DNA of 64,000 nucleotides, from assembly GCA_008330645.1 (NCBI GenBank), contig VLTN01000027.1, positions 372,001-436,000 on the forward strand. The letters are read 5' to 3'. The notes beneath the pieces are model-generated. The model saw only the letters and a program-made list of their open reading frames with translations. It had not been told where the DNA came from and ran no database searches. Of the stretch, positions 5,013 to 64,000 are shown in pieces. Each line of letters begins with the position of its first letter. Position 1 is the stretch's first letter. Made by a program: the position numbers and the translations under genes. Source of the stretch: Cafeteria roenbergensis. Lineage: Eukaryota; Sar; Bigyra; Bicosoecida; Cafeteriaceae.

Positions 5013-7559
5013 CTAGTGGGAACTCGCGGCTGCTGCCGACGCGGCGGACGCTCGGCCGGGCGACGCAAACGACACGCGGGCGCTGCCTCTCTGGCTCCTC
5101 CTGGATGCAGCTGACGCCCGTGCCGGGCCCTCCGCGGCCCAGGACACTCGTCCGCTCGGCCGACGGGCCGCACTGGACCGAATGCTGGGCATCCTCGGCC
5201 CCTCCTGGAGTCCCTGCCACCCTTGGTCATCAAGCGGGCCGTGCAGGCTTTCGGCGTACAGGCTCATGTCTGCCGCGTCGCCCACCGAGGCAATCGTCCT
5301 GCTCGGGAGGATTAGCTCGTCTGGCCTTGCAAGCTGCTGTTTCACCCTTGACAGGTCCTTCTTCTTTGCCGCTGTCCGCTGCTTGTACGCAGCCAAGCGG
5401 CTTTGCGCAACTTGCTGCCAGTACGCGAAGGAGCGAAGGTTGTCCGCCTCCTTCTCCAGCCGCCGCGTCAGGACCTCCTTCGTGTGCACCTGCTGCGCCT
5501 TTGCTCGCGCGAACGCGACGGACTGCTCCTTCTGAGCCAGAAGGCGGGCCCCGATGATGCTGCTCTGCACTCTTCGCGTAGGGAACCAGCGGTGGTGGTG
5601 GTGGGGCTCAAGGCGGCCGAGGCGGTGAGTGATTACTCCACCGTCGCGGTTCAAGTTGGCTCGCCACAAGCCCTCGTACATGACGTCCCCGCGGTAGGGG
5701 ATAGACCCTGCCAAGGGGGCAGACCCTTCCAGTGAAGGGTCTCCGCTCTCTGGGACGTCGCGGGGTCCTTCGATGGCCTGCTGGGGGGGGGCGCTCCGCA
5801 GCGCCGCCAGGTCTGCTTCCAGCGCCTCCATCCTTGCCTCTGCATCGCTTTGGGGTGGGCCGGTCAGCGACGCTAGCTTCGAGCTGTTTGTGGCCGCAGC
5901 GCTGGCTCGGACGATGCTCCGAGGGCTCACGCGAGCACGGCTGCCGCCGCCTTCGCTGGCGACGCGCCGGCGCGCGGCTCGCCTCGCTGCATCGCGGTGG
6001 ACATTCCCAATGTTGACCAAGCCACGCCCGTGACGGAACCCCAGTTTGTGCATGCCATAGTACCGTGCATCACACTCGGTCGCGTCGGTTTCGCCATGCC
6101 CGTGGCGCAGTCCGTAGGCGAAGCTCCCAACGTACTTGCCGATGGCGCGGTCCAGAACGATCCCCCTTCCGTGGAGCTGCCCGTCCCTCCAGGTGCCGCT
6201 TTGCGTCAAGTCCCCGACGGCAGAAGACCCCACACCGTCCATCAGGGACAGACTCCCAAAGTGCCCCTTCCAGCGGGAGCCCGACGCGTCTGTCAGCTCA
6301 CCTTGGCCGTGGGGTTGGCCGCTCGAGAACTCGCCCGTGAACTCGGAGCCGTCGACAAACTTGATGTTTCCGGCCCCGTGTGGCATCCCGTCCATGTACT
6401 CGTCGCCGTGGAGCAGGGACATCTTTTCGTGGAACCCCGGCGTTCCGAATGTGCCGCGGTACACGTCACCGTTGGCGAATACCAGAGTGCCTTCTCCGCG
6501 GCGCCACTCCCGCTCTAGCCGACCGGTGTACCGGCCTTGCGCGTTAATCTCCACGCCAAGGCCGTGGCGGCGCCCCAGCCTCCACTGGCCCGAGTAGAAC
6601 CCGCGCTCGTCCCGGAACTTGTACATGCCTCGGCCGTGCTGCAGGCGCACGACCCGCACGCCCCGCATCGTGACGGCGGTGTACGAGTCTGGGAGCTGGT
6701 CCTTGGCCCACGGCCCCTTTTGCGTCATCGGCTTGCCGATTCCGCGTTTGGACATGGCCAGCGCAAAGTCCGCCCAGTTCAGCTTGTGCGTCGCAACGTA
6801 AGCAAGCCGTCTCCCGCGGTCCTCCTCTTCGAACTTGATCTCCCACGCGTTGAAGCGGAGAGGCAGCACCGTCTCCACCAGCCGGGCCGTGAACCCGCGT
6901 CCTTTGTCTCCCTCCCGCCCCGCAATGATGCGGCGCATCCTCTCCTCGAGGTGTGCTAGCTCGGGTTCCAGCTCGGCCACCTGGGCCCTGAGCTGCCGCG
7001 CGCGCTCCACTCTAGCCGCCTTGATTTCGTCGAGGGTAGAGCCTGCCACGGGAGCAGTCGGGGCGTCGATGAGCTGTTTGCGCACGTCTTTGAGTCTGAT
7101 CGACGCTTCCTCGATTCTGAGCCGCGCCGCGACCAGCTCCGGGTCGTCGTCGTCGAGTCCCGCGCTGAGCCAGGCCTGCAGCGACTCCTGGTCCACTTGG
7201 TCCGGGACGTCGAGGCAAAACACGCCCACGCTCCCGCGATACGTCCCGTCCTCGAGCGCGTCCGGCTCCAGTTTTGGCTGAACGCTCTCTCTGATGTAGT
7301 AGAGCGCTGGCAGCGGCAAGCAGTCATTCTTCCATGTTTCTGGCATCACGACGGCTCCTGATCGCTCCTCTTGCAGAAAGACCACATCGCAGCGAAAGAG
7401 ATGGTCCAGCGTTTCCTTGTCCAGGCGATAGCGAGGGATTTGCTTGATGGTGGACGCGTCGCCCTCGAAACCGACTCGCACGTACAGGAACGCCTTGGGA
7501 AGGCTCGAAAACCGCTTCTTCTCGGCCCGCAGCGCCTCCGACCGGCGGGCATTGGCCAT
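5013..7559 (-). CDS. MORN-repeat protein with coiled-coil tail
   Basis: Single exon, 848 residues from the ATG at 7559 (MANARRSEALRAEKKRF). The frame stays open further upstream, but that part lies in the shared promoter. The N-terminal 200 residues are globular and unrecognised. Residues about 310-515 hold a run of MORN repeats (for example FYSGQWRLGRRHGLG, YRGTF, FTGEFSSGQPHGQGEL, YVGSFAYGLRHGHG). A basic coiled coil follows at about 670-740, then a Ser/Ala-rich end. MORN repeats form extended beta hairpins and are common in ciliary and membrane-associated scaffolds; a cytoskeletal or ciliary role is inferred from this and from the ciliary genes nearby. It is transcribed divergently from the FYVE gene. 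Confidence 0.85.
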   Translation of the reverse strand: MANARRSEALRAEKKRFSSLPKAFLYVRVGFEGDASTIKQIPRYRLDKETLDHLFRCDVVFLQEERSGAVVMPETWKNDCLPLPALYYIRESVQPKLEPDALEDGTYRGSVGVFCLDVPDQVDQESLQAWLSAGLDDDDPELVAARLRIEEASIRLKDVRKQLIDAPTAPVAGSTLDEIKAARVERARQLRAQVAELEPELAHLEERMRRIIAGREGDKGRGFTARLVETVLPLRFNAWEIKFEEEDRGRRLAYVATHKLNWADFALAMSKRGIGKPMTQKGPWAKDQLPDSYTAVTMRGVRVVRLQHGRGMYKFRDERGFYSGQWRLGRRHGLGVEINAQGRYTGRLEREWRRGEGTLVFANGDVYRGTFGTPGFHEKMSLLHGDEYMDGMPHGAGNIKFVDGSEFTGEFSSGQPHGQGELTDASGSRWKGHFGSLSLMDGVGSSAVGDLTQSGTWRDGQLHGRGIVLDRAIGKYVGSFAYGLRHGHGETDATECDARYYGMHKLGFRHGRGLVNIGNVHRDAARRAARRRVASEGGGSRARVSPRSIVRASAAATNSSKLASLTGPPQSDAEARMEALEADLAALRSAPPQQAIEGPRDVPESGDPSLEGSAPLAGSIPYRGDVMYEGLWRANLNRDGGVITHRLGRLEPHHHHRWFPTRRVQSSIIGARLLAQKEQSVAFARAKAQQVHTKEVLTRRLEKEADNLRSFAYWQQVAQSRLAAYKQRTAAKKKDLSRVKQQLARPDELILPSRTIASVGDAADMSLYAESLHGPLDDQGWQGLQEGPRMPSIRSSAARRPSGRVSWAAEGPARASAASRRSQRGSARVSFASPGRASAASAAAASSH

Positions 7560-7796
7560 GACCCCAGGCCTCACGCGGCGAGGGCCGTGCCCGCCAGCCC
7601 GAGGGCGAGCGCCTTGGGCGGCTGGAGCTCGATGGCTCTGCTGCTGGTGCGGCGCCTGCAGCAAGGCGGCGACGCTTGCAACGTGCAAGGCGGAGCTCGC
7701 TCCCCAGCGGCCAAGGCAGGCTCCCCTCCCCTGGGCCAATCGCCTCGGCCGGCTTGCCGAGGGTGGCGAGGCGACGAGTTGCGTGTTTCGCGGCAG

Positions 7797-7812
7797 CGGC
7801 AATATTTGACGG
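7797..7812. promoter_or_regulatory. AAATATTG palindrome in bidirectional promoter 1
   Basis: On the minus strand the core reads GTCAAATATTGCCGC. It lies 242 bases from the MORN gene ATG and 174 from the FYVE gene ATG. It is one of four matching sites in divergent promoters of this window. Confidence 0.5.
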
Positions 7813-7979
7813 CCTGCCAGCAACCGCCCATCGATTGCCACCCGCTGTTCAGGTCCACTCCCTGCGGCTCACCCCACGGATCCCGTCCACCCCATTCACC
7901 TGCAGGGCGGGGGCCGGCAACGCCAGTGTCGGCCCGAGCTGCCAGCGCGTCGGAGGCCTTGACGCGAGACTTGGAACGA

Positions 7980-9761
7980 ATGGCAACCTGGTCCAGCAGC
8001 AGCGAGCCAGGGCTGCCGCCCCTTGGGCCGTCGCGGCCCTACCTCACGCCTCAGCAGCAGCTCCACGGTGCTGGAACCCCGCATTCAGCAGAGGCGCCCA
8101 GTCATGTGGGACCCTGCGAGGCGCCGCGAAGCGCGGAAGAGCAACGGAGGAGGCGGCGCCAGCATGCGCGCCGCATCGGCGAGCCCCAGCTGCTGCCGGA
8201 ATGGAAGCGTCGCCCGCGAGATGCTGCCGCGGTTCCGCATCGTCTGGTGAGGGACGTTCTTCGCGCCGCGGGGGCGTCCCCTGGGTCGGAGGTATCCACC
8301 GAGCGAGTTGTGCAAGCCGTGCAAGAGCTGCGCCTCGCTGACAAGGAGGGTGTGCCCACCATCGAGGCCGTGGCAAGGGCCGCGCTGCGAAGCGCCGGGA
8401 AGCAGCGGGAGAGGGCCGCCCGGCGCGGGTCGAGCGCGAGTGGCGCGCCAAGGGAGAGCGCCAGCGCGGCCGCCAGCGCGGCTGCCAGCGCAGTTGCCAC
8501 AGGCAGCCGTGCCGGGGGAGGCGCCGCCGCTCGCAACGCCTCCGCTGCCGCCTCTGGCCCCGGGGAGGGCTCCGCCGACGGGGCGGGTAGAACTTCTGCC
8601 AGTGCCGGTGCCGGTGCCGGTGCTGGTGCTGGCGAACGCGGCGTGAGAGCGCCGGCGCGCTCTGGCGACGAGGCCCCGTCAAACGGAGCCCCGGGCGGCG
8701 CCCATGCCAAGCTCCCCCTCCGCGTCCCAGCCGGGAAGACGGCGTCCACGCTGATGCCTGTCACGGGGGTGTGGACTGGCGCGGACCTGGCGACGGCGGT
8801 GGGGTCGCTGGTGGGCAGCTTTCGCCCGCCCGACCCTTCCAGCGCTGGGCGCATGGCGCCTTCGTCGGCGGCGCCTGCGGCAGGAGCCGGCAAAGCGACC
8901 GCGCCGTGGGAGCCGTCCTCGGAATCAGAGCCCGAGTCGGGGTCGGGCTCCCGGCCAAGCGTCCCGCCGTCGCAGCTCGCCCGCGTGTCGCCGCCTGGCA
9001 GCCGGACGCCCCCCGGCTCCCTGCCACCCTCAGCCCCGACGCTGCCGCCGGCGTCCCCGGCGCGGCGTGCCTCTCCGCCAGCGTCCCCTCCCGCGGACGC
9101 ACGGGCAGCAGCAGCCGCAGCAGCAGCCCAGAGGCGAAGGGGTTTCATCGCCGCGATGAACCCCTCCGCCGTCACGAGCCCGTCAGCCCCGTCGTCGCCA
9201 GCACTGCCCGCGCGGGGCCCCACCGATGTGACTAGGGAAGCCCCTTCAGACCCCCGGGCGGCTCCCCAAGGGCGCGAAGGGGGCGGAGGTTACGGCTACG
9301 TGGGGCCTGTGCCGGCCCCGTCGCGCTCGACGCCGGCGACGGGCCGAATTTCGCCGCAGGCAGAGCTGGACCCCGGGGCGGAGGAGTGGGGAGCGACCGC
9401 GGCGAGGGTGCGGGAGTCGGCCGGCATGCCGCCGCCCGCGGCGCTGGGAGGGCTGATGCCGGCTTGGGAGGAGGACGACGCGCGGACGTCGTGCCCCGTG
9501 TGCGGGAAGCGGTTCGTGACGCTGGGAGTGGTCTCGTCGCTCATGGGAGCGATGGGTATCCGGGAGAATGGCAGACCCAGGCGGAGGCACCACTGCCGAT
9601 GCTGCGGATCCCTGGTTTGCAGCAAGTGCTCCCAGTTCGAGGCCGTCATCCCGGCGCTGGGGATGCGGGCCGGCAGCGTGCGCCTGTGCTGCTGCTGCGC
9701 GCTCGACGCAAGGCGCTCCGACTTGAAGGTTGTCATGTCGAGCTGGTCGAAGCGGCGCTAG
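7980..9761 (+). CDS. FYVE-type zinc-finger protein
   Basis: Single exon, 593 residues, starting at MATWSSSSEPGLPP. The N-terminal 150 residues are Arg-rich and partly helical (VRDVLRAAG, VVQAVQELRLADKEGVPTIEAVARAAL). A long Ala/Ser/Pro/Gly-rich linker follows, including a perfect Ala-Gly run coded by a GTGCCG/GTGCTG repeat at about 8600-8632. The C-terminus (about 504-575) has four cysteine pairs: CPVC, then RRRHHCRCCG, CSKC and CCCC. This is the FYVE signature, which binds phosphatidylinositol 3-phosphate on endosomes. The loop between the first pair and RRRHHC is long (about 23 residues) and I do not see the usual WxxD motif in front, so lipid binding is likely but not certain. Confidence 0.8.
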   Translation: MATWSSSSEPGLPPLGPSRPYLTPQQQLHGAGTPHSAEAPSHVGPCEAPRSAEEQRRRRRQHARRIGEPQLLPEWKRRPRDAAAVPHRLVRDVLRAAGASPGSEVSTERVVQAVQELRLADKEGVPTIEAVARAALRSAGKQRERAARRGSSASGAPRESASAAASAAASAVATGSRAGGGAAARNASAAASGPGEGSADGAGRTSASAGAGAGAGAGERGVRAPARSGDEAPSNGAPGGAHAKLPLRVPAGKTASTLMPVTGVWTGADLATAVGSLVGSFRPPDPSSAGRMAPSSAAPAAGAGKATAPWEPSSESEPESGSGSRPSVPPSQLARVSPPGSRTPPGSLPPSAPTLPPASPARRASPPASPPADARAAAAAAAAQRRRGFIAAMNPSAVTSPSAPSSPALPARGPTDVTREAPSDPRAAPQGREGGGGYGYVGPVPAPSRSTPATGRISPQAELDPGAEEWGATAARVRESAGMPPPAALGGLMPAWEEDDARTSCPVCGKRFVTLGVVSSLMGAMGIRENGRPRRRHHCRCCGSLVCSKCSQFEAVIPALGMRAGSVRLCCCCALDARRSDLKVVMSSWSKRR

Positions 9762-16852: not shown

Positions 16853-19520
16853 ATGAGCGGCGCCAAGCGATGGGCGTGCTCGAAGTGCACGTTCATGAAC
16901 AGCTGGGGCAAGACGACCTGCGAGATGTGCAACGAGGGCGAGCGCCCGTCCGCCCCGGAGGTCGTGGAGGAAGGCGTGAACTGGGGTGAGGCGCTGCTTC
17001 CTGCGCTGCGCCCTGCGACCTTGCGACTGCCGCGCGTGCCGAGCGGGCGCCCGCGGGGAAAGTTCGGCGGCAGACCGCCTTTCGGCTGGCCCGCGAGGCA
17101 GCCGAGCCCGAGCTGGATCCGCAGCCAGCCCTGCTTTGACGCGCCCCGATTCGCGGCCTCGGCGCACTCCCGCCAGGCGAAGCAGCCTGCCGCGGGAAGG
17201 ACCCGACTTGAGCGCGCGGTGCGCCCCTCAGCCGCCCTCAGGCCGGCCCCGAGGCGCAGCCAATCCCTCTGGCATTGAGGTTCGCTCCATCGCCACGCCC
17301 GCGATTTCCGCTAACTCGCCGAGCTCCCCGGCCGCCGCGCCCTGGACTGCCCCCCCCGCCACGCCCCCGCGCCCCCGCGCCCTCCGTGTTCGCTGGTGCA
17401 CCGGCCTCGCAGCCTGCTCGGAGTGCACGTTCGAGAACAAGTGGTCTTCGCTCGTGTGCTCAATGTGTGGAACCGGCACCATTGCCAAGGGCAAGCGCAT
17501 TGCTCCGGAGGGCGGAAAGCGCCCAGCCAAGGCAGGCGGGGCTGCCGGAGCCTCCCGCCGCAAGGGCGGGAAAGGCAAGTCTGGGGACGACTCGGACGGC
17601 CCGGTCGTCGTGCAGGCCCCCTCGGCCAGCCGCGCTCTCTGGGAAAAGGGGCTGCCGCTGTCGGACCTGGTCATCGAGGCGGTGTCGCCCGAGGGCAAGG
17701 TGACCGAGATCCGCGCGCACCGCTGCTTCCTCGCCGCGGTTAGCAACTACTTCAAGGCGGCCCTCTTTGGCGAGGGCGCACCCGAAAAGCCCGCGACTGG
17801 GCCCGCTCGGCTTCGCATCGAGGATGTCGACGTCGACGCCCTTCGGGAGTGCATCCGCTGGTGCTACGTGGAGACGTGGTCGGAGGAGTCGTCCATGGTT
17901 GTCCGGTGCAAGATGGCTGCGAAGCGCTTCGATGTGCCAGGGCTGGAGTTCGCCAGCTGCCAGGCGGCTCGCTCCAAGCTCACGCCAGCGGGCATGCTGA
18001 CGGCGCTTGCGGCGGCCACGAACGCCGGGGACAGGGAGCTCATGGCCGCCGCGGTGGACGGCGCTGCCTCTGACCCCGAGGGCACCATCGCCAACCCAGG
18101 ATTCCTCGAGCTTCCTGCCCAGGCCGTGGAGGCCCTCGTGCGCTGTGACCGCATGGCCGCAGATGAGCTCGACATCGTCAAGGCTGTCCTTGCGTGGGCG
18201 GACAGGCGCGCGTCCCAGCGAGGAGCCGCCCAGCGCCGTGGAGCGGCCAGCGCGGCTGCCTCGGGCGCTGGCGGCGGCGGCGGCGGCTACGTCGGCCCGC
18301 TGAGCACGGCCGAGGAGCTCCTGAAGGAGCTTTGCCCCACCGGCGCCGCCGTGCAGGCAGCCGCTGCTGCCGCGTCGGCTGCCGCCGCTGGAGATGGCGC
18401 CGCCGCGGCCTCCGCAGCTGGAGCGGACGCTGCCGCCGCGGCCTCCGCGGCCGGTGCCGAGGATGGCGAGTCCGCGTTCAGCTACACCGCGTCCATCGCG
18501 GGGACTTCAACGGCTGGCGCGGGGTCCGGACCTGGTGCCCTGCCGGCCCGCCCCGTGGACATCTTGCACGCGCTGCGGCTGCCGCTGCTCAAGCTGGAGG
18601 AGCTGATCAAGTTCGTCAAGCCCTCGGGAGTGCTCAACGCGCGCGACTTTGCGGCCCTGGTCTCGCACTCGTACAAGAAGCCGTCGGAGCGCCGCCTGGT
18701 CAAGAGCGTCGCGGGCTTCAGCAACGAGCGCCGGGAGGGCACCAGCAAGACCGTGATCATCCACATGTGGGGCGGCGGCGGCGCCTGCGGGCAGGACAGC
18801 GGCCCGCAGTTCGGCGGAGCGGGCGGCTACCTGGCAGTCCGCTACGAGCTGGTGCCTGGGGACGAGCTGACCATCCACGTCGGCGACGGCGGGTACGCCG
18901 ACGCTTCTGGCTCCAACGACGCCCTGTCCACCAAGGCATGGCCGAACGGCGGCTGCGGTGGCTACAACTGGGTGTCCGGTGGCGGAGGTGGCGCCACGTA
19001 CGTGACCAGCTCGATGCACGAGGGCGAGGTGATTGCAGGCGCAGGCGGCGGCGGCGGCGGACCGGCAAACGGCACGTGGTCGTCTGCTGGTGGAGGCGGC
19101 GGGGGCACGAAGGACGGGCGTGTGGGCGAGGGAGGCCACGGAGGCAACCAGTCTCGCCGCTCCCCCACGATGGGAACAGATGGCGGCGGCAACGGCGGCA
19201 AGCCCGATGGCTCTGGCTCCGCAGCACGGGGGGCCTCGCCGCACGGCGCCGGAGGCGGGCCTGGCGGCTCGTCGCGGTCGGACGGCGGCGACGGCGGCGC
19301 CTCATCGAGCAAGTGGGCGGAGGAGGTCTGCACGCTCACCCCGACCGACCAGGAGGCGGTGGAGAGCCCCACCCTCAAGGTGTCTGCTGGCGGCGGGGGC
19401 GGGCCCCGCTCCCCCAAGGCAAGGGGAAAGCCCGGCCTGTGCATCATCGAGATCGAGGCCACGGGAGAGCGCATCGAGTTCAAGTTCAAGGGCGAGCCAG
19501 AGGTGTACATTGCCGAGTGA
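16853..19520 (+). CDS. RanBP2 zinc fingers + BTB-BACK + glycine-rich domain protein (two exons)
   Basis: Exons 16853-16985 and 17413-19520 (phase 1, GTGAGG donor, CAG acceptor), 746 residues. Exon 1 codes a RanBP2-type zinc finger (WACSKCTFMNSWGKTTCEMC); exon 2 opens with a second one (CSECTFENKWSSLVCSMC), in which the usual leading tryptophan is missing at the splice junction. After a basic linker comes a BTB fold (LSDLVIEAVSPEGKVTEIRAHRC...) and a BACK-like helical region interrupted by an Ala-rich insert. The C-terminal third is Gly-rich with regular aromatic/beta strands (TVIIHMWGGGGACG, YLAVRYELVPGDELTIHVGDGG), resembling the glycine-rich fold found in some extracellular receptors. BTB proteins often recruit substrates to cullin-3 ligases, and RanBP2 fingers bind ubiquitin or RNA, so a ubiquitin-related adaptor is plausible. 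The combination is unusual. Confidence 0.85.
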
Positions 19521-20122
19521 GCCGACGAGCTCGCAGCCGGTCTGCTGCTCGTTGCTCGAGTGTGCGTGCGCGCGCAAGTTCGGCTTCGCAGGCTTGCCAG
19601 CAAAGACACAGTGCGTGACAAGCTCGACGGCGTATGATGCATGGTTCACTCGTCGCCGAGGCTGAGGAGAGCGACCTTGATGGCGGCGCATCAGGCACAC
19701 ACTCTGCGAACTAGCGAGCCAGTTCGCACCGAGAAACAGACACACCTTGCGCTGTTTCCCTCCTCCCCACCCCCCCGCCCGACTGGCAGCCCGCGCGGCA
19801 AGCCGCCCGCCGTCTCGCACTCATGGAATGCGCGCAGCCATGGCACTGCCGGTGTGCGCTGCGCTGTTTCGTGGCAGAGAGTCCAAGGTTTCGGTGAAAC
19901 GGCGGTGACATGCAAGCCAGCTCGGCACGCACTCACACCTGCGGTTCGCCAACCCGGGCGCGACCCGAGCACAAGCCTCGTGTTGCCCTCGGCGGCTCAC
20001 CGAGCCCCTCGCCACTGCCCCTCGCCACCCCTGGGCCGAGGGAAGAGGTGCGCTTCCGTGGGCAGGCCGCGCCTTCGGCGTTGTGCAGTGGTCCTCGCCG
20101 ACAGCTCGGAAGCTGTCGTGCC
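19521..20122. other. Gene-free stretch before the RGS-FSP1 gene
   Basis: 602 bases between two plus-strand genes. It holds the 3' end of the BTB gene and the promoter of the next. No coding frame, RNA gene or AATATT motif is seen. Confidence 0.4.
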
Positions 20123-22190
20123 ATGGGATGCATGACTTCGGCTCCAGCAGTTCCTCGCAGCGCGCCGGTGACCGCCGCGACTGGGTCGGGGTTCCGGCGC
20201 CACGATAGGGGCACAGTCGACGCTTTCTCGGGGGCCGTGGAAGCCCCGCGGCCCCTCTTTGATCCCGTCGCCGGAGTGGACGACATGCCGCCTCTCGACC
20301 CGTCCCACTTGGGGCTCGCGCACCTGTTTCAGCAGACTGCCCTTCTGCGCATGTTCATGGCCTTCGCTGCGTCTCGGTGCGCCGAGGAGAATGTGCTCTT
20401 CTTGCGAGACGTAAAGGAGTGGGAGCGCAGCCTCCGGGGGGACAAGGGGGCCGACGGAAAAGGCGCTCGGGCGTCTGCCAAGTTCATGGTGAGCGCACCG
20501 AAAGGATTTCGCGCTGGTCGCGCGCTCCACGACTGCTCGCTCCCACTGACGCTGCGTGCCGGGGGCAGCACGCCGTGCATTGGCGAATGCGCAAAGCGTG
20601 CGTCGCGGTCAGGGCGGTGAGCGGGCCGCGTTGTGCGCGACGGCTGGCGAGTTCGACCGGATGCGAACCCTCTCGAAGAACCCGCCGCAGGTTGACGAAT
20701 ACATCCGGCCGGACGCGCCGATGGAGGTGAACATCTCCGACAGAACCAGGAAAGCCGTGCTCTCTGCCTATGCCTCTGGGGAAGTGCTCGCTTCCACGTT
20801 CACCCCGGCCGAGACTGAGGTGTCCAAGGGGTTGCAGGACAATTTTTGGGCCGAGTTCGTCAAGCTCGTGGCTGACCAGGCGGCCGCCCCGGTCCCCCGC
20901 AGCCCCTCACCGTCTCGGCGCAAGCGGGTTGTCATCATTGGGGGGGGATTCTGCGGCACCTACTGCGCGATAATGCTCGACGCCGACCCGAGGGTCGAGG
21001 TGGTGCTTGTCGACACCAAGGACTACTTCGAGTACACCCCGTCCATCATCAAGGCCTTCAGCAGACCGGAGACGCACGCGGCGATCGTGCAGCCCCACGC
21101 CAAAACGGTCCGCAACGGCCGTGTCATTGTTGGAGAGGTCCGTGCCGTCCGCAGCGACTGCGTAGCGGTGAACTTCGAGACGATCACGTTCGACTACCTG
21201 GTCATTGCCTCTGGCTCCCACTACCCCTCGGCGGTCAAGAGCACCAACGTCACGGTTGCGTACCGCGGGAAAGTCGTCCGGCAGCAGCGCGCCCTCATTG
21301 ACGCGGCCAAGCAAATTTGCGTGATCGGCGGAGGCGTCGTCGGGGTCGAGATGGCGGCCGAGCTTGCTGGAGTCCACCGCAAGAAGATCACTCTGGTCCA
21401 TAGCCGTGACAGGCTGCTCCCGAAGCTGGGGCCGGGCGCGGACGGCCGAGACGGTCACGACATGGCCTACGAGCACCTGGAGCGCGCCGGCGTCACGGTA
21501 CGGCTCGGCGAAAGGGCCACGCACTGGGACGACTCGTTGAAAGCTGTCGTCACCTCCTCGGGTCCGCCCATCCCGGCTGATCGCGTGCTGTGGTGCGGGG
21601 GCCCGCAGCCGCTGACGGCCTTCATGCGACCCCACTTGCCGTCCACCTTGGACAGCCATGGGTTTGTCAAGGTGTCCACCGCTCTGACTGTCGAGGGGCA
21701 CCCCACGATGTTCGCCGGGGGGGACATCATCACGATCCAGTGCGGCCCAGTGGCTGCGGAGCTTGACAGGCCTGCTGTCATCGACCCAGGTCAGTCGGCT
21801 CACAGCGAGCACGGAGCTGTTGCCAGGAGACCCGCCTCGAGCGAGGCTCATGTGCACGGAAGCACTGGCGGAAGCATTGCTCGCCTGGGCGCGGCAGTGA
21901 ACACCGTCGCAGACGATGGCTACGTCCTCGAGGAGAGGATGGCACGGAATGCAGTCCACCACGGGCTCCACATCGCCAAGAACATCCGCAACCTCGTGGA
22001 GGGAAAACCCGTCGTGCCGCGGGTGGTGGAGCGTGGCGTCCACGCGATGCTGGTCTCGCTGGGAACACGAGACGGGATCCTGGTGACTGATGGCGTGCCC
22101 TCCTTTGGCCCATTCATTTCAAAAAAGGACTGGTACGAAGCAACTGTGATGCAGGAGGTCAGAGAGCACCGCGTGATCGTCCACACTTGA
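20123..22190 (+). CDS. RGS domain fused to FSP1/AIFM2-like FAD/NAD(P)H oxidoreductase
   Basis: Exons 20123-20488 and 20613-22190 (phase 0; GTGAGC donor, CAG acceptor), 647 residues. The N-terminus MGCMTSAP fits an N-myristoylation site (Gly2) with a palmitoylatable Cys3. Residues about 55-205 form an RGS fold spanning the intron: LLRMFMAFAASRCAEENVLFLRDV, then VDEYIRPDAPMEVNISDRTRK and a helix ending FWAEFVKLV. RGS domains accelerate GTP hydrolysis on G-alpha proteins. Residues about 225-647 are a two-dinucleotide-fold flavoprotein: RVVIIGGGFCG for FAD, CVIGGGVVGVEMAAELAG for NAD(P)H, MFAGGDII, and a C-terminal LVSLGTRDGIL resembling the AIFM2 family. AIFM2/FSP1 reduces ubiquinone at membranes and is itself myristoylated in animals. 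Both domains look intact. The exact acceptor among nearby AGs is inferred from phase. Confidence 0.82.
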
Positions 22191-52622: not shown

Positions 52623-53020
52623 CCTGCTTGCGCGGGGCCAGGCGCGGAGTGCGGCGCCGGGGCCGTTCTGGGGGCGCCCTGTTGCTGTTTTCCGCTCCTT
52701 TGACGGCGCTGCCTCTGCGACGCTTCACGGAGAACAGAGCGCTTCGCCTGGGATTTATCCGCGCGCAAGTCGACGCACTTGCGCAGCGCGCGCACGCACG
52801 CCCGGGCGTTCTCCATTGGTCGGGTGTGAGCTGCCCCGCGCTTGCCTCGGCGCGCTGGTTCGGGCCTCGCCAAGCAGGCTGTGCGGGCGCCAGGCAGCGC
52901 TTGCCCATCGATCTCGAGCCATCGACACCCCCGCCGTGCTGCCACCCCGTCCTCGCAGCCGCAGGTCGGCAGCCCTCGGGCTGCAGCTCGCGCACGTAGC
53001 CCGGAGCTCCCTTTCCCACG
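52623..53020. promoter_or_regulatory. Shared upstream region of Mpv17-family and ferroportin genes
   Basis: 398 bases between divergent ATGs. No AATATT palindrome; one weak AT-rich site (GGGATTTATCC) lies near 52751. Confidence 0.35.
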
Positions 53021-54910
53021 ATGCTGGCCTTTTTGGACGTTGCGCTGCCCCGCGGACTCGAGTCGAGGCTGTATGCCAGCCACGCCCTGTCTCGGTGGGG
53101 CGACAGGATGTGGGCTTTTGCCGCTTCCATCGTCGTGGCGTCTGTGAGCGGGGGTGTGGCCACGCTCCCCGCGGCCTATGGCGCAATCGAGGGCATGTCG
53201 ACGTTTTTTGGAGGCGCGTCCGTGGGCGCCGCGCTTCGGACAACCCCGTCCCAAAGGCTCGGCGTGGTGCGCAAGGCGCTCGTCGCGCAAAACGTCAGCG
53301 TTGCCTTGAGCGCAGTTGCGGGCGTTTTCGCCCTGCTAATTGCGGAGGACACCGTGCTGGCGGGCAGTGACGCGTCAGGCTGGCTGCTCGCAGTGGCGGT
53401 GGGCGGCCTGATGCTCTTCGGCTGCTGTGCTGCAGTTGCCGGCCTTGCCAGCTCCCTGGCCGTCGAGAAGGACTGGGCCGTTGTGATTTGCGACGGCAAC
53501 GAGGACCGCCTGGCCCGCATGAACAGCACGATGCGGCGAATCGACCTCTTCTGCAAGACGGCCGCGCCCGCAATCACTGGCGCCCTCATGACCGCGGGCG
53601 TGGCGTGGGGTGCCGCCGGCGTGGCCGCGTGGAACGTTTTGTCGCTTGCTGTGGAGTACCGGCTGCTGGAGCTGGTCGCAGGCGGAGTTGCTGAGCTCGG
53701 GGGCACCGCCACCTCGCCAGCCCCCGTGCCTGAGCCAGGCGGCGGCGGCGGCTGCAGCGTGGAGCTCACAGCTCTACCGAAGCTCTCTGACAGTGCCAGC
53801 GAGACGGGGGCAGATGCGCCAGGCACGGCCGCCAGCGCTGCAGCGGCAAGCGGCGCGGAGGAGGGGTTGGCGTCGCACCGCGAGACGCTCGCGATGACGC
53901 CCGCCAGCGACGACCTCGACGCCGAGCGGCTCCGGCGCGGAGAGCCCGTCGCGTTTGCCGCGGCACCAGACGACAAGGCGATGGCGCCGGGGGCGGCGCT
54001 CAACGGGAGGGCTGCCCGGGACAGGGAGGGCGGCCCATCCGGCCCGCCGGGCGCGCGCAGCGGCAGCGGCAGCGGCAGCGGCAGCAGCGGAGGCGAGGCC
54101 GCGGTGGCGGTGGCGGCGCGGCCCCGCCTGACGGCGTGCCGCGTGCTCTGGCTGGCCGGGCAGCCGCTGCGCGACCTGGCCGCCGGCTGGGCGCAGTACC
54201 GGCGGCTCTCCTTCGTGGGCTCCGCCATGGGCCTGGTCATCCTCTACCTCTCCCTGCTGAGCTTCAACCGCGTCACGTCCAGCTTCCTCCTCTGGGCAGG
54301 CTTCGAGCCGTGGGCCATCGGCGTGGCGCAGGCGGTGGGCGCTGTCTGCGGGCTCTCCGCCACCTGCTGCGTGCCGGCCGCCCTGGCCAGGTTCGGGGTG
54401 CGGGGCACTGCCACCTACTCGGTGTGGGTCCAGCTGGCCATGCTGCTTCCCTCTCTGGCCGTCGTCCCCTTTGCGATGTCGGTCGAGGTCGCGTCCAACC
54501 CCGGGCCCGACGCGGACCGCCCGCCGCTTTGGGCGGTCGTGTGTCTTTGCTTGTCCCTGGCCGCGTCCAGGGCGGCGCTGTGGACCTTCGACCTCGCCGT
54601 GACGCAGATGCTGCAGCTCTGGGTCGACCCCGACGAGCGCACGCTCCTCAACGGCGTGCAGCGCTCGCTGACGTCTCTGTTCGGCGTGGCGGGCCTCCTC
54701 GCGGCAGTCGCGGTGCCCAACCCCTCGTCGTTCGGGTGGCTCGTCGTGGGATCCCTGGGCGTGGTGGCCGCCGCGGGCGTGGCCCATGGCTGCTTCTCCA
54801 GCGACAGGCCTGCAGCCCAGTTTGCGGCACTTGCGACCACGACCGCGAAGCCGACCAAGCATGAGGACGGCCCCGACCCGGAGCGCCCTTCGGCCGCAGC
54901 ATCCGCGTGA
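53021..54910 (+). CDS. SLC40A1: Ferroportin (SLC40A1/IREG family) iron exporter
   Basis: Single exon, 629 residues. Ferroportins export Fe2+ across the plasma or vacuolar membrane. The N-terminal half has SHALSRWGDRMWAFA (TM1 entry), paired helices, and the family signature VEKDWAVVICDGNEDRLARMN followed by STMRRIDLFCKTAAPAITGAL. A long Gly/Ser/Ala-rich cytoplasmic loop (about residues 225-365) follows. The second half resumes with LRDLAAGWAQYRRLSFVGSAMGLVILYLSL, WAIGVAQAVGA, and WTFDLAVTQMLQLWVDPDERTLLNGVQ. About twelve membrane segments are expected. Start MLAFLDVALPRGL is the only suitable ATG before TM1. Confidence 0.92.
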   Translation: MLAFLDVALPRGLESRLYASHALSRWGDRMWAFAASIVVASVSGGVATLPAAYGAIEGMSTFFGGASVGAALRTTPSQRLGVVRKALVAQNVSVALSAVAGVFALLIAEDTVLAGSDASGWLLAVAVGGLMLFGCCAAVAGLASSLAVEKDWAVVICDGNEDRLARMNSTMRRIDLFCKTAAPAITGALMTAGVAWGAAGVAAWNVLSLAVEYRLLELVAGGVAELGGTATSPAPVPEPGGGGGCSVELTALPKLSDSASETGADAPGTAASAAAASGAEEGLASHRETLAMTPASDDLDAERLRRGEPVAFAAAPDDKAMAPGAALNGRAARDREGGPSGPPGARSGSGSGSGSSGGEAAVAVAARPRLTACRVLWLAGQPLRDLAAGWAQYRRLSFVGSAMGLVILYLSLLSFNRVTSSFLLWAGFEPWAIGVAQAVGAVCGLSATCCVPAALARFGVRGTATYSVWVQLAMLLPSLAVVPFAMSVEVASNPGPDADRPPLWAVVCLCLSLAASRAALWTFDLAVTQMLQLWVDPDERTLLNGVQRSLTSLFGVAGLLAAVAVPNPSSFGWLVVGSLGVVAAAGVAHGCFSSDRPAAQFAALATTTAKPTKHEDGPDPERPSAAASA

Positions 54911-61324: not shown

Positions 61325-64000
61325 ATGCGCGGCACCGGCGCTGCGTGGCGCAGGTACGCGATCCTTTGTGCATTGGCCGCTGCGGCATGCGCTTGGCATT
61401 TCGTGAGTATGGCGGGAGCGGCGAGAAGACGCTTTGCAGCCAAGGGGTTCATGCCCTCTCTGGCTCCGCGACACCAGCAGCGCCAGTCGGCGTTGGGCGG
61501 CGCAGGGTCGCGAACCTCGAGCCAGACCGCGCTCGGGGACATCCGCAGCCCTCCGAGGAGCTCAAAACGCAAAATCTACCCAAGCAGCACCGCCCGGTCC
61601 TGATATCCGCGTCCACGCAGCCACAGGGGGTCCATGCCAGCTCGGGGAAAAAGGAGCCGATGCCAGCGAGCAGTGGCCACGGAAGTTTGGAAACGCGAGA
61701 AACCCCAGCGCAACGATTCCTCTCGCTTGAGCAAAGCAACGAAACAACAACTCCCGGAACCAATGCCACGGCCACGCCAGCGGCCAACGCCACGGCCACG
61801 CCAGCGGCCAACGCCACGGCCACGGCCATGCCTTCACCAGCGGCCAACGCCACGGCCACGGCCACGGGATCACCAGCGGCCAACGCCACGGCCACGGCCA
61901 CGCCTTCACCAGCGGCCAACGCCACGGCCGCGGCCAACGCCACGGCCACGGCATCACCAGCGGCCAACGCCACGGCCACGGCCACGCCTTCACCAGCGGC
62001 CAACGCCACGGCCACGGCCATGCCTTCACCAGCGGCCAACGCCACGGCCACGGCCACGGGATCACCAGCGGCCAACGCCACGGCCACGGCCACGCCTTCA
62101 CCAGCGGCCAACGCCACGGCATCACCAGTGGCCAACGCCACGGCCACGGCCACGGGATCACCAGCGGCCAACGCCACGGCCACGGCCACGGCATCACCAG
62201 CGGCCAGCGTCTCGGCCACGGCCACGGCATCACCAGCGGCCAGCGTCTCGGCCACGCCAGCGGCCAACGCCACGGCCACGCCAGCGGCCAACGCCACGGC
62301 ATCACCAGTGGCCAACGCCACGGCCACGGCCACGCCTTCACCAGCGGCCAACGCCACGGCCGCGGCCAACGCCACGGCCACGGCATCACCAGCGGCCAAC
62401 GCCACGGCCACGGCCACGCCTTCACCAGCGGCCAACGCCACGGCCACGGCCATGCCTTCACCAGCGGCCAACGCCACGGCCACGGCCACGGCATCACCAG
62501 CGGCCAACGCCACGGCCACGGCCACGCCTTCACCAGCGGCCAACGCCACGGCCACGCCAGCGGCCAACGCCACGGCATCACCAGTGGCCAACGCCACGGC
62601 CACGGCCACGGGATCACCAGTGGCCAACGCCACGGCCACGGCCATGCCTTCACCAGCGGCCAACGCCACGGCCACGGCATCACCAGCGGCCAACGCCACC
62701 GCCACGGCCACGCCTTCACCAGCGGCCAACGCCACGGCCACGCCAGCGGCCAACGCCACGGCATCACCAGTGGCCAACGCCACGGCCACGGCCACGGCAT
62801 CACCAGCGGCCAACGCCACGGCCACGGCCATGCCTTCACCAGCGGCCAACGCCACGGCCACGGCCACGGCATCACCAGCGGCCAACGCCACGGCATCACC
62901 AGTGGCCAACGCCACGGCCACGCCAGCGGCCAACGCCACGGCATCACCAGCGGCCAACGCCACGGCATCACCAGTGGCCAACGCCACGGCCACGGCCAAC
63001 GCCACGGCCACGGCCACACCTTCACCAGCGGCCAACGCCACGGCCACGGCCACACCTTCACCAGCGGCCAACGCCACGGCCACGCCAGCGGCCAACGCCA
63101 CGGCCACGGCCACGCCTTCACCAGCGGCCAACGCCACGGCCACGGCCAACGCCACGGCCACGGCATCACCAGCAGCCAGCGTCTCGGCCACGGCCACGGG
63201 ATCACCAGCGGCCAACGCCACGGCCACGGCCACGGGATCACCAGCGGCCAACGCCACGGCCACGGCCATGCCTTCACCAGCGGCCAACGCCACGGCCACG
63301 GCCACGGCATCACCAGCGGCCAACGCCACGGCATCACCAGCGGCCAACGCCACGGCCACGCCAGCGGCCAACGCCACGGCCACGGCCTCGCCTTCACCAG
63401 CAGCCAACGCCACGGCCACGGCATCACCAGCGGCCAACGCCACGGCCACGGCCATGCCTTCACCAGCGGCCAACGCCACGGCCACGGCATCACCAGCGGC
63501 CAACGCCACGGCATCACCAGCGGCCAACGCCACGGCCACGGCCACGGGATCACCAGCGGCCAACGCCACGGCCACGGCATCACCAGCGGCCAACGCCAAC
63601 GCCACGGCCACGGCATCACCAGCGGCCAACGCCACGGCCACGGCCAACGCCACGGCCACGGCCACACCTTCACCAGCGGCCAACGCCACGGCCACGCCAG
63701 CGGCCAACGCCACGGCATCACCAGTGGCCAACGCCACGGCCACAGCCACGGGATCACCAGCGGCCAACGCCACGGCCACGGCCATGCCTTCACCAGCGGC
63801 CAACGCCACGGCCACGGCCAACGCCACGGCCACGGCCACACCTTCACCAGCGGCCAACGCCACGGCCACGGCCACGCCTTCACCAGCGGCCAACGCCACG
63901 GCCACGGCCACGCCTTCACCAGCGGCCAACGCCACGGCCACGGCCAACGCCACGGCCACGGCATCACCAGCGGCCAACGCCACGGCCACGGCCACGCCTT
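61325..64000 (+). CDS. Secreted Asn-Ala-Thr repeat protein (likely N-/O-glycosylated), 3' end beyond window
   Basis: Model: exon 1 61325-61402 and exon 2 from 61549 to the window edge, phase 0, donor GTGAGT, acceptor CAG. Exon 1 codes a textbook signal peptide (MRGTGAAWRRYAILCALAAAACA). Exon 2 opens with about 75 ordinary residues (PSEELKTQNLPKQHRPVLIS...), then from about 61750 becomes a pure Ala/Thr/Asn/Pro/Ser array to the edge. It contains about 70 copies of NAT, each an N-glycosylation sequon, separated by linkers PSP, GSP, ASP or PAA (for example AANATATATPSPAANATATA). A few blocks read ASVSA instead. Such a protein would be extended and heavily sugar-coated: a cell-wall, scale or extracellular-matrix mucin. 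Two antisense frames are also open, but lack any signal or start. Splicing is inferred from frame and signal sequences. Confidence 0.65.
61750..64000. repeat. Compound 6/18/24-base tandem repeat, at least 2.2 kb
   Basis: The array is built from GCCAACGCCACGGCCACG blocks joined by linkers such as CCAGCG, GCATCACCAGCG and GCCACGCCTTCACCAGCG. All length changes are multiples of three. A variant block containing GCCAGCGTCTCGGCC appears near 62205, 62240 and 63175. It extends past the right edge. Confidence 0.95.

Follow-up and report, generated by a model that had tools for sequence, protein, structure and literature searches.

RGS domains are found in a number of multidomain proteins, such as the GRKs, the RGS-RhoGEFs, the plant 7TM-RGS proteins and the RGS sorting nexins, in which the RGS domain is combined with a working domain, often at a membrane. 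In the GRKs and the p115-type RhoGEFs, the RGS-homology domain serves as a docking and input module for the enzyme. To our knowledge, there is no single polypeptide in which a regulator of heterotrimeric G proteins occurs together with a flavoenzyme of the quinone-reductase type. Cafeteria is a marine flagellate and belongs to the bicosoecid stramenopiles. According to PMC6972860, it is the host of a giant virus and a virophage. For RGS4, a review names three critical contacts with G-alpha, namely Asn88, Asn128 and Asp163 (PMC8252600). On the flavoenzyme side, GxGxxGxE, WxxG and GD are described as motifs of FSP1 and of NDH-2 (PMC10643123).

Here, we analysed 64,000 nucleotides of Cafeteria DNA, the whole of which is referred to as the window. 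Positions 20123..22190 on the plus strand contain a single spliced gene, which starts with an ATG at 20123 and ends with a stop codon at 22190, and which codes for an acylation-type N-terminus, followed by an RGS domain and then by a flavoprotein (Table 1). The joined exons give a 621-residue protein identical to the NCBI protein FNF27_04769 ('hypothetical protein', Cafeteria roenbergensis), which is named 'RGS domain-containing protein' in UniRef; the 621-aa entry comprises six member sequences and four contigs (sources ncbi, uniref, nr and eukprot).

Table 1. Features of the RGS-flavoprotein fusion gene; positions are those of the window, residues those of the joined protein.
Feature	Position	Strand	Residues	Remarks
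Exon 1	20123..20488	+	1-122	MGC N-terminus, low-complexity stretch, RGS half 1
MGCMTS	20123..20140	+		predicted N-myristoylation (G2, S6) and palmitoylation (C3) signal
RGS half 1	20318..20488	+	66-122	A-E-E-N at 87-90
Intron	20489..20690	+		202 bp, GT-AG, phase 0, interrupts the RGS domain
Exon 2 and stop codon	20691..22190	+	123-621 (499 aa)	RGS half 2, linker, flavoprotein
RGS half 2	20691..20864	+	123-180	M-E-V-N at 133-136
Met133 codon	20721..20723	+	133	M in 6/6 rows; start of two metagenomic ORF calls; possible internal start
Linker	20865..20924	+	181-200	about 20 residues, poorly conserved
Pyr_redox_2 domain	20925..21737	+	201-471	1e-36, intact
Cofactor motifs	within 20925..21737	+	W-C-G-G 423-426; G-D 466-467	FAD site GGGFCG; NAD(P)H site GGGVVGVE
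Variable insert	21738..21917	+	472-531	about 60 residues, 3' of the GD motif
C-terminal part	21918..22187	+	532-621	terminates in KKDWYEATVMQEVREHRVIVHT; first portion matches the FSP1 C-terminal region

The sequence-only reading had proposed that the intron unites the two halves of one RGS fold in frame and that exon 2 leads directly from the second half into an intact oxidoreductase, and both statements held. The joined protein matched the Pfam RGS profile PF00615 with 44.5 bits (2.3e-11, profile positions 3-110 of 117), which passes the cut-off of 23.9, whereas exon 1 and exon 2 scored 19.3 bits (0.0015) and 15.6 bits (0.022), respectively, and thus both stayed below the cut-off when searched separately. 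When the frame of exon 1 is read through the intron, a stop is reached at 20618, after 165 amino acids. Six in-frame acceptors are available to the intron donor, five of which were scored with Pfam RGS on the RGS piece (20613 was left out), and the acceptor leading to 20691 gave the highest score with 49.2 bits, compared to 42.5, 41.3, 40.4 and 30.3 bits for the other four. We regard the fusion of RGS domain and flavoprotein as confirmed at the sequence level. The domain pairing is new, and both families are already known. That no standard protein is known to have this pairing, as had been stated beforehand, is in agreement with our searches: no fusion of an RGS domain with a flavin oxidoreductase was found in the literature among the matches listed, nor was any paper on an RGS domain and AIFM2. 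Similarly, a literature search pairing Cafeteria burkhardae with G protein found nothing, and the main text of the Cafeteria expression paper PMC7852580 does not contain 'rgs', 'g-protein' or 'antioxid'.

Several other features were seen in the window. An open reading frame upstream of the fusion gene and on the same strand (16980-19517) codes for a BTB domain (1.2e-9) and a BACK domain (4.9e-5), followed by a glycine-rich tail. The open reading frame at 7362-9758 has a FYVE zinc finger at its C-terminus (1.9e-11). Another open reading frame, at 53000-54907 and thus some 31 kb away from the fusion gene, codes for a ferroportin-like exporter of iron (Pfam FPN1, 3.1e-83). A long degenerate tandem array with a 36-base unit and multiples thereof covers positions 61760-63998, where several frames are open at the end of the window.

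Five metagenomic relatives (P0004-P0008) share 46-86% identity with the Cafeteria protein, and in each of them RGS half 2 and the flavoprotein are aligned in one open frame. Absence of the fusion from all close relatives, which would have spoken against it, is contradicted by these five, although an independent match to Pfam RGS was obtained in only two of them (see below). Conservation counts over six rows refer to the Cafeteria fusion and these five proteins. Three of the five (P0004, P0005 and P0008) extend upstream of the exon boundary and have a glutamine directly before the first residue of exon 2 (V or L), as would be expected if the position of the intron is conserved. In P0006 and P0007, only the part from residue 133 onwards is seen, and the RGS assignment there is by alignment. 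RGS half 1 and the N-terminal region are visible in Cafeteria only. In the five relatives, RGS half 2 is 92, 52, 48, 54 and 37% identical to that of Cafeteria, and the flavoprotein core, in the same order, 93, 71, 66, 65 and 51%. The corresponding values for the insert are 78, 14, 19, 18 and 16%, and the linker is 13-60% identical among the relatives. The comparison of RGS half 2 (37-92%) with the insert, which is only 14-19% identical in four of the five relatives, suggests that RGS half 2 is under constraint. With the full relatives and an E-value of up to 1, Pfam RGS was matched by P0004 (0.044) and P0005 (4.3e-4) and by none of the other three, and when the RGS half 2 piece alone was used, P0005 reached 25.6 bits, which is above the cut-off, and P0008 15.0 bits, which is below it. 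In precomputed Pfam lists for 77 and 92 listed homologs, RGS was present in none except the fusion protein; these lists provide weak evidence for absence, because they also missed the domain in P0004-P0008. When a homology search was run with the RGS domain alone, two proteins out of 550 candidates matched at an E-value of up to 0.01, namely the fusion protein and one close relative, and a relative was encoded in none of 162 pattern-matching stretches from viral contigs.

We propose, with moderate confidence, that the fusion protein is an N-acylated, membrane-bound NAD(P)H flavoprotein, which is docked on G-alpha via its RGS domain and which, as a second output, likely deactivates G-alpha. To this end, the N-terminus would be myristoylated and palmitoylated, bringing the protein to the membrane that bears the acylated G-alphas. 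The RGS domain would bind active G-alpha and probably accelerate its GTP hydrolysis, and this binding would keep the reductase where G proteins are active. There, the flavoprotein would use NAD(P)H to reduce a membrane quinone or a similar acceptor. By analogy with the GRKs and the p115-type RhoGEFs, the RGS domain most likely acts chiefly as a docking and input module for the reductase; the deactivation of G-alpha as a second output is the least secure step.

A start with MG followed by a serine at position 6 is the motif for N-myristoylation and a cysteine at position 3 that for palmitoylation, and MGCMTS conforms to this rule. The MGC start that had been read from the sequence is also the start in the annotated model. 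As there is an in-frame ATG upstream at 19910, which would add 71 residues and abolish the acylation signal, the MGC N-terminus is a predicted one. Two stand-alone FSP1-like genes were found in Cafeteria. The first one (locus L006, 932-2334, contig C36) has three exons by eye and codes for a protein of 383 amino acids that starts with MGAASSAP, and the second one (locus L007, 684-2283, contig C21) starts with MGNCCAKV and shows a change of reading frame beside a run of C, possibly because of a sequencing error or an intron, or because the gene is broken. Because these paralogs (MGAASS and MGNCC) and the fusion gene all carry such starts, an acylation-type N-terminus appears to be a common theme. 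The 16 kb contig C140 carries part of a near-copy of the C36 gene (locus L008), in which a 215-aa frame ends early; this may represent either a haplotype or a duplicate that is incomplete. Candidate partners of the RGS domain are encoded in the same genome, in which at least five G-alpha loci are above the Pfam cut-off (two on contig C33 and one each on C67, C40 and C36). The three G-alpha N-termini that were read are MGLC, MGIC and MGIC, and in switch I, the glycine is kept in all four proteins read, within T-T-G in three of them and T-M-G in one. Four other RGS matches are present in the genome, one of which scores 20.5 bits in hmmscan and is thus below the cut-off, and another of which lies beside a PH domain. 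The latter (locus L003, contig C25) consists of an RGS half, in which an E-N motif is found, and a PH domain downstream in another frame, and is perhaps an intron-bearing RGS-PH gene.

Among solved structures, the best match to the RGS piece was RGS16 (2.4e-4). Of the 18 structures matched with an E-value of up to 10, 16 carry the name RGS or GAIP, a further one, CG5036, is an RGS domain as well, and the last one is unrelated (E 0.56). In an alignment with RGS16 and RGS2, the equivalents of RGS4 Asn88 and Asn128 are N90, which is visible in Cafeteria only, and N136, which is invariant in all six rows. The third contact is not conserved; in a by-eye alignment with RGS2, the position of Asp163 is occupied by N in four of the six rows, including Cafeteria, whereas the remaining two have G. 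In addition, the last RGS helix diverges from that of solved RGS proteins. As two of the three critical RGS4 contacts are present, the domain probably speeds up GTP hydrolysis by G-alpha; as N or G has taken the place of Asp163, this GAP activity may be weak or lost. One might therefore consider that the flavoprotein is the working part and that the RGS domain is a tether, which binds G-alpha but has no GAP activity. The replaced Asp163 and the unusual last helix would agree with this, as does the core of the flavoprotein, whose identity exceeds that of RGS half 2 in each of the five relatives, but the retention of both asparagines, one of them without exception, argues against it, and we consider a purely tethering domain possible, though rather unlikely.

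The flavoprotein itself is intact. The GxGxxGxE motif is kept in all six rows, as are E342 and E346, which correspond to FSP1 E156 and E160, respectively; a third acid (FSP1 E164) is present in P0008 only and missing in the other five. W423 and G426 of the WxxG motif and G466 and D467 of the GD motif are likewise found in all rows, and so is the pair K600-K601 near the C-terminus. FSP1 was the best match in a search of solved structures, both with one sequence (1.7e-20) and with a profile of the six (2.6e-36). H48 of FSP1, which belongs to the inhibitor/quinone site, is replaced, the H-H of FSP1 being aligned to E-Y of the fusion. In NCBIfam, no equivalog was found for the flavoprotein, the best score being 63.6 bits against a cut-off of 310. 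The retention of the catalytic motifs suggests that turnover matters, and it thereby weakens the idea that catalysis is minor and that the protein is a redox-sensing GAP, in which the NAD(P)H/FAD state regulates the RGS domain and sets the length of the G-protein signal. The two domains are separated by only about 20 linker residues, as one would expect for such a coupling, but the linker is variable, and we consider this possibility improbable.

We compared the most hydrophobic 18-residue window within the last 42 residues (shifted by 10 for P0008) of 14 chosen proteins and found mean hydrophobicities of 0.18-0.43 in the six fusion rows, compared to 0.49-0.68 in the other eight, of which seven are archaeal-type rows and one is a plant row. 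By the hydrophobic moment, these two sets were not separated. As the C-terminus of the fusion is less hydrophobic than that of its archaeal-type and plant relatives, access to membrane quinone is uncertain. We speculate that, for the fusion, a C-terminal membrane segment may be less important, and acylation or G-alpha more so, a lead that was sought post hoc. In alignment A2, the archaeal-type rows lack the insert at residues 472-531.

The flavoprotein could also, or mainly, be made alone, from the internal start at M133 or from a promoter of its own, with the full-length form being rare. This would account for the invariant methionine and for the two metagenomic reading frames called from it, yet a start at M133 would yield a cut RGS domain, and the residues EYI 5' of M133 are kept in all four rows covering that part (Cafeteria, P0004, P0005 and P0008), so that we think this quite improbable. 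That two adjacent genes have been merged by annotation, as could be suspected for gene models made, according to PMC6972860, with BRAKER and the transcriptome data of a single strain (E4-10P), is very unlikely, as the splice junction lies inside one domain and completes the RGS fold in frame and exon 2 itself runs unbroken from RGS half 2 into the flavoprotein, by alignment also in the five relatives.

In contrast to the fusion itself, an identity of the flavoprotein with FSP1/AIFM2 found no support in this form. The relatives with the highest scores beyond the fusion clade are about 345 amino acids long and either archaeal or unnamed, with up to 39% identity. Among contigs of prokaryote genomes, 34 of 147 stretches encode a relative, and 31 of these 34 are titled archaea, mostly DPANN and Thermoplasmatota. 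The matches begin at residue 166 or later in 33 of the 34, the exception being a Methylobacterium locus (L052; residues 129-233, E 2e-4). Two trees were calculated from hand-chosen rows, which include 18 of the 34 prokaryote loci in a tree of 51 rows and 12 in a tree of 41 rows. The 51-row tree was a quick one with SH-aLRT only and contained the C36 protein with a mis-framed first exon, which was corrected for the 41-row tree. The latter was calculated without the long branches L051 and P0028 and, for a shorter run, also without L035, L042, L043, P0055, L020, P0018, L024 and P0027. In the 41-row tree, the fusion proteins form a clade with 100/100 support, and an FSP1/AIFM2 clade (99/94) excludes them; it contains two vertebrate-type FSP1 proteins, one of which is a reconstructed ancestor, one plant protein, three fungal proteins and the two other Cafeteria proteins. 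The fusion clade groups with 21 archaeal-type rows with support of 89/54 in the 41-row tree and of 88 in the 51-row tree, neither of which is decisive. According to the AU test, a grouping of the fusion with the FSP1 clade is not rejected (p 0.437), and a grouping with the two FSP1-like paralogs of Cafeteria is (p 0.0254). A recent duplication of these paralogs as the source of the flavoprotein is thereby rejected. A simple orthology with FSP1 is unsupported in both trees, and the AU test leaves room for it. Thus, the likeness to FSP1/AIFM2 that had been noted from the sequence holds for the best solved-structure match and for the cofactor motifs; the position outside the FSP1 clade and the replacement of H48 speak against an identity, and p 0.437 is to be read with both. 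The flavoprotein is FSP1-like in motif content, and membership in FSP1/AIFM2 is not shown by the trees. An archaeal-type origin of the flavoprotein is regarded as a lead and not as a result. An FSP1-like name in a protist can hide a different flavoprotein lineage.

A bolder proposal would be that of a G-protein-gated membrane redox enzyme, in which the RGS domain allows active G-alpha to recruit an NAD(P)H:quinone-type reductase and to switch it on, and in which the reductase was taken from archaea-type FAD oxidoreductases, instead of being inherited as FSP1, and was fused to the RGS domain in an ancestor of several Cafeteria-related protists. We put this forward as a tentative and rather doubtful reading. 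If it is true, receptor signalling would set the local antioxidant or electron-transfer capacity of the membrane. If the two domains cooperate at all, the protein of this free-living bacterivore would naturally link receptor signalling to the redox control of lipids or quinones, in a way that can be tested.

Taken together, the flavoprotein of the fusion belongs to the superfamily of FSP1, NDH-2 and the archaeal FAD oxidoreductases, as judged by its sequence. With the type II NADH dehydrogenases (NDH-2), it has the fold class and the cofactor motifs in common. NDH-2 membership was rejected, as no match to NDH2_C (PF22366) was found in the fusion protein (E up to 1, precomputed list) or in the five relatives; the six NDH-2-type rows form a separate clade with 100/100 support in the 41-row tree. 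The FAD-dependent oxidoreductases of DPANN and Thermoplasmatota (about 340-350 amino acids) are the best-scoring proteins outside the fusion clade and take a sister position to it in the tree, with support that is not decisive (89/54), but those examined show no RGS domain, are without the insert and have a more hydrophobic C-terminus. With the vertebrate NAD(P)H:quinone oxidoreductase FSP1/AIFM2 (PDB 9ift, 8wik, 8jsc and 7xpi), the fusion shares the two-Rossmann layout, the GxGxxGxE, WxxG and GD motifs and an N-terminal MG, whereas it has in addition the RGS domain ahead of the flavoprotein and an insert of about 60 residues, and E-Y in place of H-H; the C-terminal end of FSP1, with K355 and F360 close to the quinone site, lies outside the region aligned with the fusion. 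The stand-alone FSP1-like genes of Cafeteria on contigs C36 and C21 belong to the same superfamily and have acylation-type N-termini like the fusion, but they lack an RGS domain and are placed inside the FSP1 clade. No flavin oxidoreductase was seen as a partner of multidomain RGS proteins among the literature matches listed, and the fusion resembles these proteins in that an RGS domain is joined to another working domain.
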